Below, piece after piece: positions 6,395-18,386 of a DNA stretch of 34,575 nt. Source of the DNA: Syntrophomonadaceae bacterium (GTDB taxonomy: Bacteria; Bacillota; Dethiobacteria; DTU022; PWGO01); NCBI GenBank assembly GCA_003554525.1, contig PWGO01000021.1, forward strand, positions 1 to 34,575, written 5' to 3'. A program made the translations under genes and the position numbers. A model generated the notes under the pieces. It did no database searches. It worked only from the letters and a program-made list of their open reading frames with translations, and was not told where the DNA came from. Each line of letters opens with the position of its first letter. The first letter of the stretch is position 1.

Positions 6395-7651
6395 ATGTGC
6401 AAAGAAACAACAGTACATAACTATTTAAAAGATTTTGTATTTGAAGAATCCGGCAACATGTCTCTTTTTTCACCTGACAATAAGACCATCACAGAAACGT
6501 ATTATCTACAAGACTGTACCATAACCAAATTTATAAATGAATTTTGGACCTCTAAACAACGAAAGGCTTCTTCTATTCATGAAATTTCTTATAGAGCCTG
6601 TTTTAAACCTCAATTGCCCCGCTTCTTTATTAATCTTTTAACACATCCGGAGGAAGTAATTTATGATCCTTTTAGTGGTAGAGGCACTACTACCGTTGAA
6701 GCAGGTTTGTTAAACAGAAAAGTTATCTCCAATGACATAAACCCGTTAAGTAAAATATTTACACTACCCAGGCTGGGAGTGCCTGGAGTTGACGAGGTAA
6801 TAAACCGGTTAAACAAAATACCTTTGTATAAAGACTTGAAAGCTGACCTGGATTTGTCAATGTTTTATCATCCAGACACTGAATCGGAAATCGTATCTAT
6901 TAAAAATTACCTGGAAGAACGGAAACAAAAACATAAAGAAGATAATATTGACTGTTGGATTAGAATGGTAGCCACCAACAGGTTAACCGGGCATTCAAGG
7001 GGTTTTTTCTCCGTTTACACCTTGCCGCCAAATCAAGCAGTTTCTCCAGAAAGACAGATAAAAATAAATGAAAAAAGAAATCAAAAACCCGGGTATAAAA
7101 ATACCAAAGAAATAATTATTGGTAAAACCAAAAGTTTACTAAAAAATTTAAAAGAAAATGAAATAATTAATTTAAAAAACGCCTATCAAACCGGTGTTTT
7201 TCTGGAAAAAGATGCTAGAAACACTGAAGAAATCCCCGGCAATACTGTTAAATTAACTGTGACTTCTCCACCTTTTTTGGATATTGTGCAGTATTCTAAA
7301 GACAACTGGTTAAGATGCTGGTTCAACAACATAAATACTAAAGAAGTTGAAAAACAAATTACCATGTCGCGAACAGTAGAAGAATGGTCTTCCATTATGC
7401 AAAATGTTTTCTTTGAGCTTTATAGAATAACCAAACCAGGGGGGTGGGTAGCTTTTGAGGTCGGTGAAGTTAAAAATGGAAAAATTAATCTAGAAGAATA
7501 TATTGTTCCAACAGGTATAAGGGCCGGTTTTAAATGTACTGGCATATTAATTAATCTGCAAGAATTTACCAAGACATCTAATATATGGGGTGTAAAAAAC
7601 AACAACGCCGGCACCAATACCAACCGTATTGTTTTGTTTTATAAAGAATAA
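6395..7651 (+). CDS. solitary DNA methyltransferase (N4-cytosine/N6-adenine type)
   Basis: 418 aa. The S-adenosylmethionine-binding motif I is DPFSGRGTTTVEAG (residues 91-104), followed by ISNDINP (motif II region). The catalytic motif IV is TSPPF (residues 290-294) in LTVTSPPFLDIVQYS. S-P-P-F/Y is typical of N4-cytosine or related amino-methyltransferases with the order motif I before IV; the recognition part is probably in the long basic stretch between them. The start is ATG 6395 with GAAGGAG 8 nt upstream. No restriction endonuclease gene is nearby, so it is an orphan methylase or the survivor of a restriction-modification system. It is low in GC and lies in the accessory stretch between the IS and the core genes, which supports transfer. 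It ends at a bidirectional terminator. Confidence 0.85.
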   Translation: MCKETTVHNYLKDFVFEESGNMSLFSPDNKTITETYYLQDCTITKFINEFWTSKQRKASSIHEISYRACFKPQLPRFFINLLTHPEEVIYDPFSGRGTTTVEAGLLNRKVISNDINPLSKIFTLPRLGVPGVDEVINRLNKIPLYKDLKADLDLSMFYHPDTESEIVSIKNYLEERKQKHKEDNIDCWIRMVATNRLTGHSRGFFSVYTLPPNQAVSPERQIKINEKRNQKPGYKNTKEIIIGKTKSLLKNLKENEIINLKNAYQTGVFLEKDARNTEEIPGNTVKLTVTSPPFLDIVQYSKDNWLRCWFNNINTKEVEKQITMSRTVEEWSSIMQNVFFELYRITKPGGWVAFEVGEVKNGKINLEEYIVPTGIRAGFKCTGILINLQEFTKTSNIWGVKNNNAGTNTNRIVLFYKE

Positions 7652-10715: not shown

Positions 10716-11498
10716 CTACTTTTTACGGTAAATAGCAGAATATTTCCTTTCCAGCCCAAAACGATGCGCTTCACTGATATATTCGGCACATCCAATTACC
10801 AGGTACCCTCCCAAAGGCATGAGGTTAACAAACCGGTTTATAACCTCTTCCTGAATCTCTGTTTTAAAGTAAATAAAAACATTACGGCACAAAATAAGGT
10901 GCATAGTTTGCAAACCGTGCAGGGGCTTTAACAAGTCCTGCTGACGGTAGGTTACCATGTTTTTATACCTGTCTTTTATATAGTACCAATCTCCTTCTTT
11001 ATTAAAACATTTACCCAGCAACGCCGTAGGAACTTTTTCTACCTGCCTCCAGCTATACTTTCCTTCACGGGCTCTTTCCAGGGCTTTCTGGTCAAAATCG
11101 CCGGCCAGTATACTAGCGCGGTTGTGAGCATTTAATTCTTCCAGTATTATGGCCACGGTATAAGGCTCTTCCCCGTTGGAACATCCGGCGCTCCATATGT
11201 TTATGTCTTTAAATTTTTGTAAGAGCTCCGGCAGTACATTTTTTTTAAGATTTTCGTAAACGTGTTCGTCCCGGAAGAATCCAGAGGTATTTATAGTCAG
11301 ATAAGTCAGGAATTTATTTAGCGCTTCCTGGTCAGTATCCAGCCACTGGAAGAAGTCTTGAAATCCCGTACAACCTTCCCGGGTAATCATCTGCCGTATT
11401 CTTCTCTCCATCTGGCGCTGCTTGTAGCTGTCCAAATCCAGTGAAGTTTTTTCCCTAAACTTTTTTTTAAATTCTTCAAAGTCCCACTCTTTATTCAC
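10716..11498 (-). CDS. cheR: chemotaxis protein methyltransferase CheR
   Basis: 260 aa. It transfers methyl groups from S-adenosylmethionine to glutamates of chemoreceptors. The N-terminal helical domain has SYKQRQMERRIRQMI. The catalytic domain has the SAM-binding IWSAGCSNGEEPYTVA (about residues 99-114), GDFDQKAL and the LILCRNVFIYF segment. GTG 11496-11498 follows AGGAGGTATAC. It is the last gene of the cluster, 18 bp after cheB. No chemoreceptor gene is in the window, so the receptors are encoded elsewhere. Confidence 0.95.
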   Translation of the reverse strand: MNKEWDFEEFKKKFREKTSLDLDSYKQRQMERRIRQMITREGCTGFQDFFQWLDTDQEALNKFLTYLTINTSGFFRDEHVYENLKKNVLPELLQKFKDINIWSAGCSNGEEPYTVAIILEELNAHNRASILAGDFDQKALERAREGKYSWRQVEKVPTALLGKCFNKEGDWYYIKDRYKNMVTYRQQDLLKPLHGLQTMHLILCRNVFIYFKTEIQEEVINRFVNLMPLGGYLVIGCAEYISEAHRFGLERKYSAIYRKK

Positions 11499-11516: not shown

Positions 11517-12662
11517 CTACTTTCTGGGTTCGCGGGCAGATTTTTTTATTCCTTCTTTTAATTTCCTGGCCCATTGAACTATCTCCGATGATATACCTGA
11601 CAGGGGAGCAATTATGTCACTGCTTCCACTGGAAATTACTGCTTCGGGCATTCCCTTTACCACTGCTGTGGCCGGATCCTGGACTATTACACAGGAAAGG
11701 GATTTTTGTTTTTTCAGCTTTCTGGTAGACAAAGAACCGTCTTTACCCATGCCGGTTAGAACCACTGCTACTACTTCATAAGGGCTGTCAATGAGAGATT
11801 CCAGCATGACATCAAATGCCGGACGAACATGGTGCACCCGTTCTCCCCGGTCCAGCAATGTCCTTCCGTTTTTATCCAGCACCAGGTGGTAGTTTCCGGG
11901 GGCCACATAAACTCTGCCTTCGTAGAGTTTGTCCCCGTTAACGGCTTCTTTTACGCGAAAAGGGGAAGCTGCATCCAGGCGCCGGGCAAAAGAAGAGGTA
12001 AACCCCGAAGGCATATGCTGAGTTATCATCACCGCGGCAGGCAGACTGGCGGGCAGTTTGTTTAAAACTTCTTCCAGGGCGCGCGGCCCCCCCGTCGAAG
12101 CACCCATGGCCACTACTACCTTGGCTTCTTCTTGCTTTGCTTCTTTTTGAGCTGCGGGAATTTGTTCTTTTTCCCTGGTAACCTTTGCTGTTTCCCGGTG
12201 GGAGACTATATCCAGCCTTGCTGTTGCAGCAGCCTTTATCTTCAGTGGAAGCGTTTTTTTAAGTTCTTCTAAAGTTTCCCCGCTTTTAAGGCCGGTAGGC
12301 TTTGGAACAAAATCAACCGCACCGGCGTTCAAGGCTTCCAGGGTGATTTCACTTCCTTCAAAGGTATGGCTGCTAACAATTATTACTGGCAATGGATTTT
12401 TGGCCATCAGTTGCTTAAGGCTGGATATTCCATCCAGCCTGGGCATTTCCAGGTCCATGGTCATTATATCGGGATCGATTTTTTCTCTTTTACGAAGTGC
12501 TTCTTCCCCGTTGCGGGCCGTTCCGGCCAGTTCCATTTCGGGGTGCTGTTCCACTATATCGCCAATAATCTTTCTCATGAAAGCAGAATCATCTACTACC
12601 AGAACCCTTATGTGCTGCTTGGTCTTCCCGCCTTTCCTGCCCGATCTTTTGTCCTGGTTCAA
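11517..12662 (-). CDS. cheB: chemotaxis response regulator methylesterase CheB
   Basis: 381 aa, two domains. The receiver domain has the acidic pair VVDDSAF (residues 24-25) and the phosphoacceptor Asp70 in IMTMDLEMPRLDG. A linker of about 50 residues leads to the methylesterase/deamidase domain with the Ser-His-Asp triad in MGASTGGPRA, ITQHMPSGF and LTGMGKDGS. It removes receptor methyl groups when phosphorylated by CheA. It starts with TTG at 12660-12662, overlapping the cheD stop (TTGA), with GGAGAG 7 nt upstream. The N terminus has an extra basic stretch of about 16 residues before the receiver. Confidence 0.95.
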   Translation of the reverse strand: MNQDKRSGRKGGKTKQHIRVLVVDDSAFMRKIIGDIVEQHPEMELAGTARNGEEALRKREKIDPDIMTMDLEMPRLDGISSLKQLMAKNPLPVIIVSSHTFEGSEITLEALNAGAVDFVPKPTGLKSGETLEELKKTLPLKIKAAATARLDIVSHRETAKVTREKEQIPAAQKEAKQEEAKVVVAMGASTGGPRALEEVLNKLPASLPAAVMITQHMPSGFTSSFARRLDAASPFRVKEAVNGDKLYEGRVYVAPGNYHLVLDKNGRTLLDRGERVHHVRPAFDVMLESLIDSPYEVVAVVLTGMGKDGSLSTRKLKKQKSLSCVIVQDPATAVVKGMPEAVISSGSSDIIAPLSGISSEIVQWARKLKEGIKKSAREPRK

Positions 12663-13147
12663 AGTCTTTTCTCTCCTCTACCTACAGTTGATATAGTCAC
12701 TTTTCCTGTATCGACATAAAGCTTCATGGTACGCCCGTGGCTGCCGCCAACATCTTCTGCCAAAACCGGTATATTTAGTTCCTTCAAGGTTTTACGGACC
12801 ATTTCCAGGTTCCGCTCTCCTATTCCCATTACATTGGAGTTATCTCCAAATAGTTTGCTTCCCCCGGCAATTTTAGCTACTACCCTGGACCTTTTAGCGC
12901 CAAGTTTCTCCATATTTTCTACCAGCAGGGGAAGAGCGGTGTCTGCAAATTTAGCCGGGTTGTATTTTTCTGAGGGTTTTTTCATAAACTGCTTGCTGTC
13001 CGATAGCAGCACATGGGCCAGCCCTCCTACTTCCGCTTGTTCATCATAAAGAGCTATACCTACGCAGGAGCCCAACCCTATTGTGACAAGAAGCCCCCCT
13101 TCCTTCTTGACTGCCAGGTCTGCTATCTTTACCTTTATTGTCTCCAT
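12659..13147 (-). CDS. cheD: chemoreceptor glutamine deamidase CheD
   Basis: 162 aa. The catalytic Cys28 in TIGLGSCVGIALYD and His45 in GGLAHVLLSDS are present. The domain is completed by AKIAGGSKLFG and the C-terminal EDVGGSHGRTMKLYVDTG. CheD deamidates receptor glutamines and, in Bacillus, forms a complex with CheC that links adaptation to CheY-P level. The ATG follows the cheC stop with no gap, so the two partners are co-translated. Confidence 0.95.
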   Translation of the reverse strand: METIKVKIADLAVKKEGGLLVTIGLGSCVGIALYDEQAEVGGLAHVLLSDSKQFMKKPSEKYNPAKFADTALPLLVENMEKLGAKRSRVVAKIAGGSKLFGDNSNVMGIGERNLEMVRKTLKELNIPVLAEDVGGSHGRTMKLYVDTGKVTISTVGRGEKRL

Positions 13148-13762
13148 CTACTCTACTCCCATTAAATTAAATAAAGAATCTAAGGCGCCCTGGTTGGGTA
13201 ATATAAGAACGGTACCTTCAATATCTTCCTGCTCGGTTTGAATAGTGGTTTTCAAAAGAATCAGGTAATCATCTGTAGTCACCGTTTCCGCAATAATGGT
13301 GCCTACTATAGCCCCGGCCATATCTACAGCCAGCTTTGGCGGAGATGACTGAAAAGATCTGTCAGTCATAAAAGAAAGCGCACTTAAATAAGACCCGGCA
13401 ACAATATTGCCTACTTCGGTTAATAAGGAAAGTTCCATCTCTTCGGTAGTATTTTCCGGGGGCAGCAGTCTTTTTATCAGGTAACGCACTGAGCTTAGGG
13501 ACAGGACAAACAGCAAAATCAGATCTATGTCCGTATCTTCGTTAATCGATTCTATATAGACTCCCCCTACCGCGTCTTCCGGTGCACCAAGGTGTTCAGG
13601 AATTTCCTGAATAGGCTCCACTGCAACCTGGGGCACATCCATGGTGATTTTTTCCTCATTTAGCATGGCAGACAGGGAGGTTGCAGCACTCCCTACTCCA
13701 ATATTGGCCATTTCCCGGAGCATGTCCAGGCGATCTTCGGTTACCTTCGGCATTTCATCCAT
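13148..13762 (-). CDS. cheC: CheY-P phosphatase CheC
   Basis: 204 aa. It carries two copies of the E-x-x-N phosphatase signature: Glu17/Asn20 in LREMANIGVGSAATSLS and Glu116/Asn119 in LLTEVGNIVAGSYLSALS, so both active sites look intact. It dephosphorylates CheY-P and binds CheD, encoded next to it. ATG 13760-13762 is preceded by GAGTGAGGT. FliY (17280-18386) carries the same kind of sites, so the cell has at least two CheY-P phosphatases, as in B. subtilis. Confidence 0.95.
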   Translation of the reverse strand: MDEMPKVTEDRLDMLREMANIGVGSAATSLSAMLNEEKITMDVPQVAVEPIQEIPEHLGAPEDAVGGVYIESINEDTDIDLILLFVLSLSSVRYLIKRLLPPENTTEEMELSLLTEVGNIVAGSYLSALSFMTDRSFQSSPPKLAVDMAGAIVGTIIAETVTTDDYLILLKTTIQTEQEDIEGTVLILPNQGALDSLFNLMGVE

Positions 13763-13780: not shown

Positions 13781-14143
13781 TTAGCTGCCCACTTTCTGCA
13801 GCGCTTCTTCAATCCGATCCGGTTGAAAAGGTTTGACCACAAAGTCTTTAGCCCCGGCGTTTAAAGCATCAATAACCAGGGATTTTTGACCCATGGCGCT
13901 AACTACAACTATCTTGGCGTTGGGATCTTTTTTAATTATTTCTTTTATTGCTGTCAGTCCATCCACGTTGGGCATGGTAATATCCATGGTTACCAGAGCG
14001 GGTTTGTGTTCATCATACATGTCTATCGCCTGTTTTCCATCCTCGGCTTCTCCAATTACCTCGTAACCATTTTTTTCTAAGATGTTTTTTAAAGTCATTC
14101 GCATAAACGCAGTGTCATCAGTAATTAATACTGTCTTGCCCAA
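13781..14143 (-). CDS. cheY: chemotaxis response regulator CheY
   Basis: 120 aa single receiver domain. The acidic pair is Asp9-Asp10 (ITDDTAFMR), the phosphoacceptor Asp54 (VTMDITMPNVDG), followed by VVSAMGQ and the conserved Lys in VVKPFQP. It carries the CheA signal to the FliM/FliY switch. TTG 14143 is chosen because GGGAGGG (14150-14156) is 6 nt away; the TTG at 14149 touches that site. The gene starts inside the last 26 nt of cheA, which couples its translation to the kinase. Confidence 0.95.
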   Translation of the reverse strand: MGKTVLITDDTAFMRMTLKNILEKNGYEVIGEAEDGKQAIDMYDEHKPALVTMDITMPNVDGLTAIKEIIKKDPNAKIVVVSAMGQKSLVIDALNAGAKDFVVKPFQPDRIEEALQKVGS

Positions 14144-16709
14144 TTTCAACCCTCCCGTCTTCTAACAAACCTACTACATCAATAATCAACGAGACGCTAC
14201 CATCACCCAGCACTGTCGCACCAGCAATTCCTTTCAATTCTCTCAGATAACCTCCCAGGTTTTTGATTACTACTTCCTGCTGGCCTACCATTTCGTCCAC
14301 AATAAGCCCTACCACTTTTTCGCCGGAAGCTACCACTACCACCGGATACTCTTCCCAACCCTCTTTGGTTACTGGAAATTCAAGCATTTCATTTAAGAAG
14401 TGGATGGGTATAACTTCATCCCGGAGGTTGGCTACCCAGCCTTTCTGGATGGTTTTAATTTGTTCTGGCTCCATGTACACATTTTCTCTTATAGTTTCAA
14501 TGGGTATAGCATAGACGTGGTTGTCTGCTTTCACCATCAATGCTTTGATAATAGCCAGGGTAAGCGGTAGTCTCAGCACAAATCGGCTTCCTTCGCCTGT
14601 CTCACTGGATACTTCCACCGAACCCTGCATGGCTTCAATATTATTCTTAACCGCATCCATTCCTACACCCCTGCCTGAAACCTCGGAAACAGTCTCGGTA
14701 GTGCTAAAACCGTTATAGAATATAAGATTGTAGGTTTCTTCGGCTCTAAATTTTTCCGCTTCTTCCGGGGTAATAACTCCCTTTCTCACAGCAGATTCCT
14801 TTAACTTTTCCGGGTCCATACCTTTGCCGTCATCTTCTACCGTGATAACCACATGGCTACCCTCGTGGTGCGCCATAAGGTATATATTTCCTTTTCTGTT
14901 TTTGCCCTGCTTTTCTCTTTCTTCAGCATTTTCCAGACCGTGGTCAATGGCATTGCGGATAAGGTGTACCAGCGGGTCGGAAAGCTGATTGATAAGTGAG
15001 CGGTCCAGTTCCGTGTCTTCCCCGCTGATATGCAGCTGCACCTCTTTGCCTTTTTCTTTGCCAATATCCCTGACCATGCGGGGAAAACGGTCAAAAACCT
15101 GTTTTATGGGAACCATCCTGAGTTTCATGGAGGCGTTTTGTAAATCGGTTGCTATCCGGTCCAGCTGTTCCAGGCACCGGTCAAGTTCTTCCGACTGTCC
15201 CTTGCCCAGTTCAAGCACCTGCGTGCGGTTAATAACCATTTCTCCCACCAGGTTAATTAACTCATCCAGCTTTACCGTTTCTACCCGTACTGTTTTTTCC
15301 ACTACACCGGACTTAGAAGCGTCTTGGACCCCTTTATCTGCTGCGGCTTTATCCGCATTCCCCTTTTTACCGGCCGCTTCAGCCGCCTTCCCCTCTTTTT
15401 CCGCCGGTTTTTCCTGCACGCCAGCCCCGTCTTCTGTATCCGGGGGAGCCGGTTCGGAAGGAGGAGGAGCCGGCCCTGTTTTTTCTTTGATCTCCCAGGG
15501 GAATATATCTACTTTCTCTATTTCGGTAATATTTAATAGCGCATTGCGCACTTCTTCCTTGGCCATAGATTCGGAAACTACCGCTACCAAAAAACTTAGT
15601 TCAAAATTTTCCTCGTCCAGGTCACTCATGGAAGGATAAGTGGTTATTATCTCCCCGTTGTCTTCCAGTTCCCTTAGAACCATGTAAGCCCGAACCGATT
15701 TCATCATGACCCCTTCTTTAAGGGTTATCTGAAATAAATACCCCTCTCCGCCTTTATTCAAGGCAGAACGCAGGTTTTCTTTTTCCGTTTCATTTAAAGG
15801 TAATTCAAACGTAGAATCGCCCGGATCGCCTACCACCTCGGCAGAAGGAGCCGCTTCTTTTTCCGCCTGTTCTACTTCCTTCCTAGTTTCAGCCGGGGCA
15901 AATTCTTCCGTGTTCCAGGGCAAAAACTCTACTTTTTCTACTTCAGCAATATTCAACAAAGAATTTTTAACTGTTTCCTGGTCTGAGTAAAGCAGCACTA
16001 TTCCCACGATAAAACTACGATCAAAATTTTCCTGTTCCAGGTCGTTCATGGGAGGGGAGGTGGTTATAATATCACCGTTTTTTTCTAATACTTGCATTAC
16101 CATGTAAGCCCGCACCGATTTCATTAAAGAATCTTCTCTTAAAGTAATATTAACTATACAGCTGGTGCCTCCCATACGCAGGCCGTATTTCAGTTTCTGC
16201 TTTTCTTCTTCGTTTAAATCAAGATACTCCTGGCCGGAAGCGGTTTTATCTCCCGGAGGAGAAGGTGGTGCCACCGGTACACTTTCTTCTTTTTTTTCTT
16301 TAGTTTCCCCGGTTCCTTTATCTGCCGGGGTATCCCTGAAGTTTTTGATCCTTTCCAGCAGCTCGGAGGCGGATTTTTTATCTTCTTCCGAAGGATCATC
16401 CGGGCTTACCAGCAGCCTCTGCAGCAGATCCACTCCGTCAAAAAGCATGTCTACTTTTTCCGCAGAGGGAGACAGCTCGCCAGATTTTAATTCTTCCAGG
16501 AAATTTTCCAGGCTATGGGACACCTCGGTAATTTGATCGTAGCCCATGGTCCCCGCCATTCCCTTTAAACTGTGCATTACTCGAAACATTTCGGTAAGAT
16601 TGTTAGCGTCTTCCGGGTTTTTTTCCAGGTTTAAAAGGCAGCTGTTCAAGGTCTGTAAGTATTCTTGAGCTTCCGCCAGAAAAAGCTCTTTGTATTCTGA
16701 ACTATCCAC
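14118..16709 (-). CDS. cheA: chemotaxis histidine kinase CheA with two P2 domains
   Basis: 863 aa, long for the family (about 650-700). Domains: P1/HPt with phospho-acceptor His46 in VMHSLKGMAGTMG; a first P2-like domain at about 164-267; a second at about 304-407; a Pro/Ala/Lys-rich linker to 470; the P3 dimerisation helices (ETVKLDELINLVGEMVINR, 477-495); the P4 ATPase with N box HLIRNAIDHGLE (582-593), G1 VEDDGKGMD (624-632) and G2 GRGVGMDAVKNNI (679-691); and the P5 CheW-like domain to the end. The two P2 units share MKSVRAYMV at 196-204 and 336-344, an exact 140-residue offset, plus LLNI-E-EKV endings. P2 docks CheY and CheB for phosphotransfer, so this kinase may bind two response regulators at once. 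It overlaps cheY and follows cheW by 28 bp. Confidence 0.95.
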   Translation of the reverse strand: MDSSEYKELFLAEAQEYLQTLNSCLLNLEKNPEDANNLTEMFRVMHSLKGMAGTMGYDQITEVSHSLENFLEELKSGELSPSAEKVDMLFDGVDLLQRLLVSPDDPSEEDKKSASELLERIKNFRDTPADKGTGETKEKKEESVPVAPPSPPGDKTASGQEYLDLNEEEKQKLKYGLRMGGTSCIVNITLREDSLMKSVRAYMVMQVLEKNGDIITTSPPMNDLEQENFDRSFIVGIVLLYSDQETVKNSLLNIAEVEKVEFLPWNTEEFAPAETRKEVEQAEKEAAPSAEVVGDPGDSTFELPLNETEKENLRSALNKGGEGYLFQITLKEGVMMKSVRAYMVLRELEDNGEIITTYPSMSDLDEENFELSFLVAVVSESMAKEEVRNALLNITEIEKVDIFPWEIKEKTGPAPPPSEPAPPDTEDGAGVQEKPAEKEGKAAEAAGKKGNADKAAADKGVQDASKSGVVEKTVRVETVKLDELINLVGEMVINRTQVLELGKGQSEELDRCLEQLDRIATDLQNASMKLRMVPIKQVFDRFPRMVRDIGKEKGKEVQLHISGEDTELDRSLINQLSDPLVHLIRNAIDHGLENAEEREKQGKNRKGNIYLMAHHEGSHVVITVEDDGKGMDPEKLKESAVRKGVITPEEAEKFRAEETYNLIFYNGFSTTETVSEVSGRGVGMDAVKNNIEAMQGSVEVSSETGEGSRFVLRLPLTLAIIKALMVKADNHVYAIPIETIRENVYMEPEQIKTIQKGWVANLRDEVIPIHFLNEMLEFPVTKEGWEEYPVVVVASGEKVVGLIVDEMVGQQEVVIKNLGGYLRELKGIAGATVLGDGSVSLIIDVVGLLEDGRVEIGQDSINY

Positions 16710-16737: not shown

Positions 16738-17256
16738 CTAGCTGGTACCCGCCTCGTCCTCGCTCAGGGTTAATTCCTCCAGAGCTATTTGCTCTTCCGA
16801 AGTAAGTATTTTTTCTAATTCCAGGATAATAATAAGCCGGTCTTCTTTTTTGCCCACCGCCCTTATCAGGTCGGTTCTTGCTCCCGCAACGCTTCCCGGG
16901 GCCTCGTGTATGGAATCTTCCGGCAACCGTATAACCTCTGTTACGGAATCTACTATCAGTCCTACCTCGTTACCGCTTACTTCAACTATAATAATCCTGG
17001 ATTCATCATCCCTTTTGACTTCAGTAATCCCAAATCTTTTCCGAAGATCGATAACAGGTATTACTTCTCCCCGGAGGTTAATTACTCCTTCTACAAAATC
17101 AAGGGACTTGGGAAGCGGAGTAATTTTGCTTAGTTTCAATACCTCTCTTACCTGCTGGATATCTACTGCAAATTCTTCATTTTCCAGTATAAAAGCCACC
17201 AGCTGTACCTCTTCTACTACTTCTTTTTCCTCGTCCTTCTTCTCAGACCTGGCCAT
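16738..17256 (-). CDS. cheW: chemotaxis coupling protein CheW
   Basis: 172 aa SH3-like CheW fold. Typical segments are QLVAFILENEEFAVDIQQVR, ITPLPKSLDFVEGVINLRG, EVIPVIDLRKRFG and GLIVDSVTEVIRLP. It links chemoreceptors to CheA in the membrane arrays. It has a short acidic start and a roughly 20-residue acidic tail beyond the domain. GGAGGTGA lies upstream of its ATG. It sits between fliY and cheA. Confidence 0.95.
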   Translation of the reverse strand: MARSEKKDEEKEVVEEVQLVAFILENEEFAVDIQQVREVLKLSKITPLPKSLDFVEGVINLRGEVIPVIDLRKRFGITEVKRDDESRIIIVEVSGNEVGLIVDSVTEVIRLPEDSIHEAPGSVAGARTDLIRAVGKKEDRLIIILELEKILTSEEQIALEELTLSEDEAGTS

Positions 17257-17279: not shown

Positions 17280-18386
17280 TTAACTCAAATTCCTTGAAGC
17301 ACTTGAAGCACTTCTTTTTACCTTAATATCTAGACTGGTAACCCTTACCCCCAGCTGACCGTTTACTACCACTACTTCTCCCCGGCCCACCATCATATCG
17401 TTAACGTATATCTCTACAGGCTCCCCGCTGTGCTTTTCCAGCTCTATAACACCTTCTTCACCAAGGGTAAAGAGTTTGCCCAGAGGAACCCGGGTTCTTC
17501 CCAATATAACCTCAACTTCCACGGGCACATCCTTGACCATTTCCAGCTGCCTGATTCTTTCTTCCAACGGAGTGTCCGGGTCTAATGGCTGTCTTTCCCG
17601 GGAATACAACACCTTTTTTTCTTCCTGACCTTTTTCCTGGCCTTTGCCTTCTTCTGAAGGAGGCTCTTTTTTTTCGCCTTTCTCCGTTTCTTCTATTAGA
17701 CTTTCAATCTCATCCTGGCTGAGCACGTTGTTTTTCTCACTGCTGCTTTCTTTTCCGCTTTCCGTTTCCGGGGCAGCTGCGGGTGCAGTTTTTTCTTCCT
17801 GCGGCAACAAGAACTTTACCATTTCCCTGGCGAAAGGTAATGGTATAACCTGCAAAAGAGTGCTGTCCAGCATGTCTTCTACTTCAATACGGAAAGATAC
17901 CTGGACCAGCTCTTCATCTCCTTCCAGGGTAACCACGCTGGTTTCCTCTTCCCCCAGGTTCTTTTTTTCTATATGGGGGGGGCTAATCTCAATGCTGCGG
18001 TTAAACATCTCCGACATGGAAGTAGCGGCATAGCCCATCATCTGGTTCATGGCTTCACCTACCGCACTTACCTCCACTTCTCCCAGCTCCTGGGACATGC
18101 TTTCCATATCCATCCCCATCATCAGCGAAGCTATAACCAGGGCATCTTTCTCTTTTATTACCAGCACGTTTTCCCCTTCCAGCCCGGAAAGGTACCGTAT
18201 CTGCAGCACCAGGCAGGGAATAGGGTAATTGCTTTTTATGTCACTGGCGGTAACCAGCTCCAGCTCCGGCGTGGTAATGCGGACGTTTTTACCCAGAATG
18301 TTCGACAACGCCGTGGCTGCAGAGCCCAGGGAAATATTCCCCACTTCCGAGAGCGTATCCCTTTCTATGTTACTCAATTCCGCCAT
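17280..18386 (-). CDS. fliY: flagellar switch phosphatase FliY
   Basis: 368 aa. The N-terminal CheC-like domain has two E-x-x-N sites, in LSEVGNISLGSAATALS (Glu14/Asn17) and GEAMNQMMGYAATSMS, so it should dephosphorylate CheY-P at the switch. A charged linker (about 205-275) leads to a C-terminal FliN/SpoA domain (VPVEVEVILGRTRVPLGKL to GQLGVRVTSLD). It has a basic tail. ATG with GGGAGG upstream. It follows a separate FliN gene; many Gram-positives have only FliY. Confidence 0.95.
   Translation of the reverse strand: MAELSNIERDTLSEVGNISLGSAATALSNILGKNVRITTPELELVTASDIKSNYPIPCLVLQIRYLSGLEGENVLVIKEKDALVIASLMMGMDMESMSQELGEVEVSAVGEAMNQMMGYAATSMSEMFNRSIEISPPHIEKKNLGEEETSVVTLEGDEELVQVSFRIEVEDMLDSTLLQVIPLPFAREMVKFLLPQEEKTAPAAAPETESGKESSSEKNNVLSQDEIESLIEETEKGEKKEPPSEEGKGQEKGQEEKKVLYSRERQPLDPDTPLEERIRQLEMVKDVPVEVEVILGRTRVPLGKLFTLGEEGVIELEKHSGEPVEIYVNDMMVGRGEVVVVNGQLGVRVTSLDIKVKRSASSASRNLS

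Follow-up and report, generated by a model that had tools for sequence, protein, structure and literature searches.

The locus considered here raises the question of whether a CheA chemotaxis kinase can carry two copies of P2, the response-regulator docking domain, and, if so, how the second copy arose and what it might do. The window, by which we mean the whole 34,575-nucleotide stretch of contig PWGO01000021.1 of a Syntrophomonadaceae bacterium, contains the gene run fliM-fliN-fliY-cheW-cheA-cheY-cheC-cheD-cheB-cheR (Table 1), and this arrangement identifies the kinase as that of flagellar chemotaxis. The Pfam domain order in the 863-aa open reading frame is Hpt, P2 (twice), H-kinase_dim, HATPase_c and CheW, with Hpt (P1), H-kinase_dim (P3), HATPase_c (P4) and the CheW-like domain (P5) all above the Pfam cut-off and in the expected order. 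The presumed phospho-acceptor of P1 is His-46, within the motif MHSLKG that starts at residue 45, and P4 has the motifs NAIDHGLE (at 586), DDGKGMD (at 626) and GRGVGMD (at 679). On its domain content, the protein is a CheA histidine kinase in which a tandem pair of P2 domains separates P1 from P3. Its closest solved relatives are the CheA structures 3ja6 and 1b3q. The Thermotoga maritima CheA (1U0S; core 1B3Q, 3JA6) shares the P2 fold and the P1-P2-P3-P4-P5 layout, but it has one P2. The neighboring CheY is the likely docking partner of P2 in the window CheA, and the receiver domain of CheB likely provides a second one.

Table 1. Features of the cheA locus, in window coordinates; residue numbers are those of CheA.
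Feature	Residues	Position	Strand	Remarks and evidence
cheA		14118..16709	-	863 aa, GTG start; P1-P2a-P2b-P3-P4-P5; ORF list, Pfam
P1/Hpt domain	4-93	16431..16700	-	Pfam PF01627, E 1.8e-16
P2a (first P2 domain)	164-268	15906..16220	-	PF07194, 78.2 bits
P2a-P2b linker	269-303	15801..15905	-	E/A/P/K-rich; sequence composition, pLDDT <50 in model
P2b (second P2 domain)	304-408	15486..15800	-	PF07194, 83.6 bits; AlphaFold model vs 1u0s_A
P2b-P3 linker	409-470	15300..15485	-	P/A/E/K/G-rich; sequence composition
P3 dimerisation, P4 kinase and P5 CheW-like domains		14118..15299	-	Pfam; motifs
cheY		13781..14149	-	122 aa, overlaps cheA 3' end; Response_reg E 3.7e-32
cheC		13148..13762	-	CheY-P phosphatase family
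cheD		12659..13147	-
cheB		11517..12662	-	receiver and methylesterase domains
cheR		10716..11498	-
cheW		16738..17256	-
fliY		17280..18386	-	CheC-like and FliN-type domains

An initial annotation of this DNA had proposed that the CheA contains two tandem P2 domains, and the profile search bears this out: PF07194 is called twice in the reading frame (147 bits in total), and each of the two segments individually scores far above the cut-off of 23 bits. By sequence, P2a also matches 1u0s_A, the P2 domain of the T. maritima CheA in complex with CheY (E 2.8e-6, phmmer). When P2b was modelled with AlphaFold, using P2a as the sole alignment partner, the result had the alpha/beta fold of P2, and 1u0s_A was its only match in the PDB at E <0.001 (Foldseek; TM 0.78 on target, rmsd 2.2 A, E 1.1e-5). 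A single-sequence model of both domains together is of low confidence (pLDDT 61); in it, P2a is a helix followed by beta-alpha-beta-beta-alpha-beta, and the order of structural elements is alike in P2b. The PDB search with this two-domain model was noisy, with 1u0s_A ranked third. The possibility that the second segment is something other than P2 is ruled out by the PF07194 matches and the match of the P2b model to 1u0s_A.

The two copies are clearly homologous. As the initial annotation had observed, the sequence MKSVRAYMV recurs at a spacing of exactly 140 residues (residues 196 and 336), and the MAFFT alignment places LLNI-(A/T)-E-(V/I)-EKV plus a Pro-Trp pair at the C-terminal end of each copy. 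Protein identity lies between 51 and 53%, being 52% across 107 residues by BLASTP (E about 1e-37) and 51% in the 109-column MAFFT alignment, which has a single gap close to the C-terminal end. Without gaps, the pair scores 277 under BLOSUM62, far above chance, as shuffled sequences average -83 (sd 22). At the DNA level the copies are 64% identical, and 49% identical at third positions, so that they are old and, as had been claimed, diverged, and are not an artefact of assembly; a very recent duplication is ruled out by the same figures. In sequence terms, then, the duplication is not a recent one. The suggestion that the second P2 explains the length of the protein holds for most of the extra residues, the single-P2 CheA of the sister family being about 690 aa long.

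The other genome of the family that we compared has the same gene order around a CheA with one P2. Its CheW, CheY, CheC, CheD, CheB and CheR are 49-71% identical to those of the window, and its CheA is 53% identical over the part from P2b to P5. We looked for P2 pairs within a single reading frame in those genomes of the class and of the phylum sample that had at least two PF07194 matches, a count that would miss copies too diverged for the Pfam profile. A tandem P2 was found in one of the 44 P2-bearing genomes of the class, that of the window itself, and the Pfam P2 profile found none in the other 43. Across the phylum sample the count was 3 of 247, the other two genomes being G352 and G297. 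A search of the retrieved relatives from the order, using P2 profiles built from the present data, found no second P2 of the window type. The double arrangement is thus unusual among related CheA proteins, as the initial annotation supposed, and the idea that it is common to the order or class was dropped, such an arrangement having been found neither among the order relatives nor elsewhere among the 44 P2-bearing genomes of the class. Long CheA reading frames in three further genomes (G285, G296 and G139) each have one P2 above the cut-off.

In a phylogenetic tree of P2 sequences, each tandem pair grouped with itself and none grouped with another tandem pair. The window P2a and P2b are mutual nearest neighbors both by identity and by tree path, a relationship with moderate support (branch support 73/65); when set against the other labelled groups, they stay together in 98% of bootstrap trees. 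Since the two copies are nearest each other and the syntenic locus in the related genome has a single P2, the most likely origin is an in-place duplication in the window lineage, in which the P2 domain plus its linker would have been copied in tandem. The CheA proteins of G352 and G297 likewise have two PF07194 domains in one chain, and their copies pair internally in the tree, apart from those of the window. This tree structure suggests that the tandem P2s of the three genomes come from separate in-place duplications.

The initial annotation was mistaken in limiting known CheA proteins to a single P2 each. CheA2 of the Borreliaceae has two, designated P2alpha and P2beta in Borrelia burgdorferi, and its authors proposed, as the initial annotation did for the window protein, that they raise the local concentration of CheY (PMC10703414). 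In their survey of 13,673 CheA sequences, Berry, Andrianova and Zhulin (Berry et al. 2023, PMC10782961) reported P2 duplication in all Borreliales and in several further independent cases; these depart from the canonical CheA in the same way as the window protein does, although the main text names only the Borreliales. The B. burgdorferi CheA2 resembles the window CheA in being a chemotaxis kinase with a tandem P2 pair joined by a short linker, and both pairs are thought to bind CheY and thereby to raise its local concentration. The two proteins differ in the length of that linker (18 residues in B. burgdorferi, about 35 here) and in the identity between the copies (26%, compared with 51-53% here). 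A further difference is the extended P3 of the Borrelia CheA2; we saw no such extension in the window CheA, whose Pfam P3 match spans 59 residues. Single-P2 CheA proteins occur in the same order and family, which makes the window duplication probably independent of the Borrelia event. Given the published duplications, the window CheA is one more representative of an architecture already known, though rare, and not a new class of system. What it adds is a clean instance of a P2 duplication confined to one lineage, of the kind that recurs among CheA proteins, for which a relative in the same family has the single-P2 version at the same locus; comparing the two proteins could provide a natural experiment in the role of extra docking sites.

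We compared both copies with 26 P2 positions that are each kept in at least 75% of 26 single-P2 relatives. P2b retains 23 of the 26 and P2a retains 20, the losses in P2a including Q171, G176, Q206 and D213; K-S-V-R, Y-M-V, the Pro, both Phe positions, and the I and E near the C-terminus are kept in both. With most of the conserved positions in place, both copies look maintained and probably dock CheY and CheB. The P2a branch in the tree is the longer (0.65, against 0.24 for P2b), and this, with the lost residues, means that P2a could bind weakly or bind another partner. In the extreme, P2a might be a decaying or repurposed spacer that no longer docks CheY, leaving the task to P2b. The branch lengths and the lower count of conserved positions point that way, but P2a still scores 78 bits against PF07194 and retains the K-S-V-R-x-Y-M-V helix as well as the conserved P, F, I and E positions, and we regard its decay as very unlikely.

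A second way in which the copies might differ involves another chemotaxis cluster in the same genome, on contig C189, with its own CheA, CheR, CheD, CheB and CheY. The C189 CheY is 78% identical to that of the window, so that one P2 might serve the window CheY and the other CheB or the C189 CheY, and a single kinase would then split its phosphate flow between partners by way of separate tethers. Roughly half of the residues differ between the copies, as such specialisation would allow, and the presence of two similar CheYs here, where the single-P2 genome of the same family has one close CheY and one CheA, is a weak hint in its favor. That correlation, however, comes from one pair of genomes; moreover, most of the strongly conserved P2 positions are common to both copies, and the C189 CheY has a CheA with a P2 of its own. 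Specialised copies are therefore an unlikely explanation, though less so than the loss of docking by P2a.

The reading we prefer, at a probability of about 0.75, is a lineage-specific tandem duplication of P2 and its linker after which both copies probably dock CheY and CheB and raise the local concentration of these regulators. The domain assignments and retained positions on which it rests come from comparison of sequences and models, and the in-place origin from synteny and the P2 tree. Under this arrangement P1 would carry the phosphate while P2a and P2b, on flexible linkers, would bind the CheY and CheB receivers, so that a CheA dimer would offer as many as four docking sites and regulator would be more concentrated near phospho-P1; we infer the docking by both copies and its effect on concentration from the known function of P2. 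In E. coli CheA, tethering by P2 is established to speed phosphotransfer to CheY, according to the survey cited above (PMC10782961), which also describes phosphotransfer as possible without P2 and reports that half of CheA proteins lack the domain. For the latter reasons, the extra P2 could be neutral.

The second CheA of the genome (C189, locus L048, 3291-5816, - strand) has one clear P2. This is followed at residues about 280-372 by a domain that scores 14.6 bits, below the Pfam P2 cut-off of 23, and that matches P2 with a probability of 68% in a profile comparison in which shuffled controls did not exceed 10%. If this is a divergent P2-type domain, as it may be, each of the two CheA proteins in the genome would have two.

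P2 also occurs outside CheA-length proteins in the genomes searched. A 295-aa protein in G320 (locus L045, 1997-2884, + strand) has only Hpt and P2 by Pfam, without a kinase, and might act on its own as a phosphotransfer and docking protein; P2 matches in reading frames of 297-304 aa were also seen in further genomes of the phylum (G178, G278, G194, G291 and G120). In G273 (locus L046, 1871-2146, - strand), a 91-aa reading frame consists of the P2 domain alone and adjoins a reading frame that, judged by eye, looks like a response regulator whose C-terminal part is HDOD-like. A P2 reading frame of the same length is found in G250.

The low-coordinate end of the window, which lies outside the chemotaxis cluster, has a phage-type integrase gene (468-1712, + strand) and a DNA methylase-like gene (6395-7651, + strand), a possible remnant of a mobile element.
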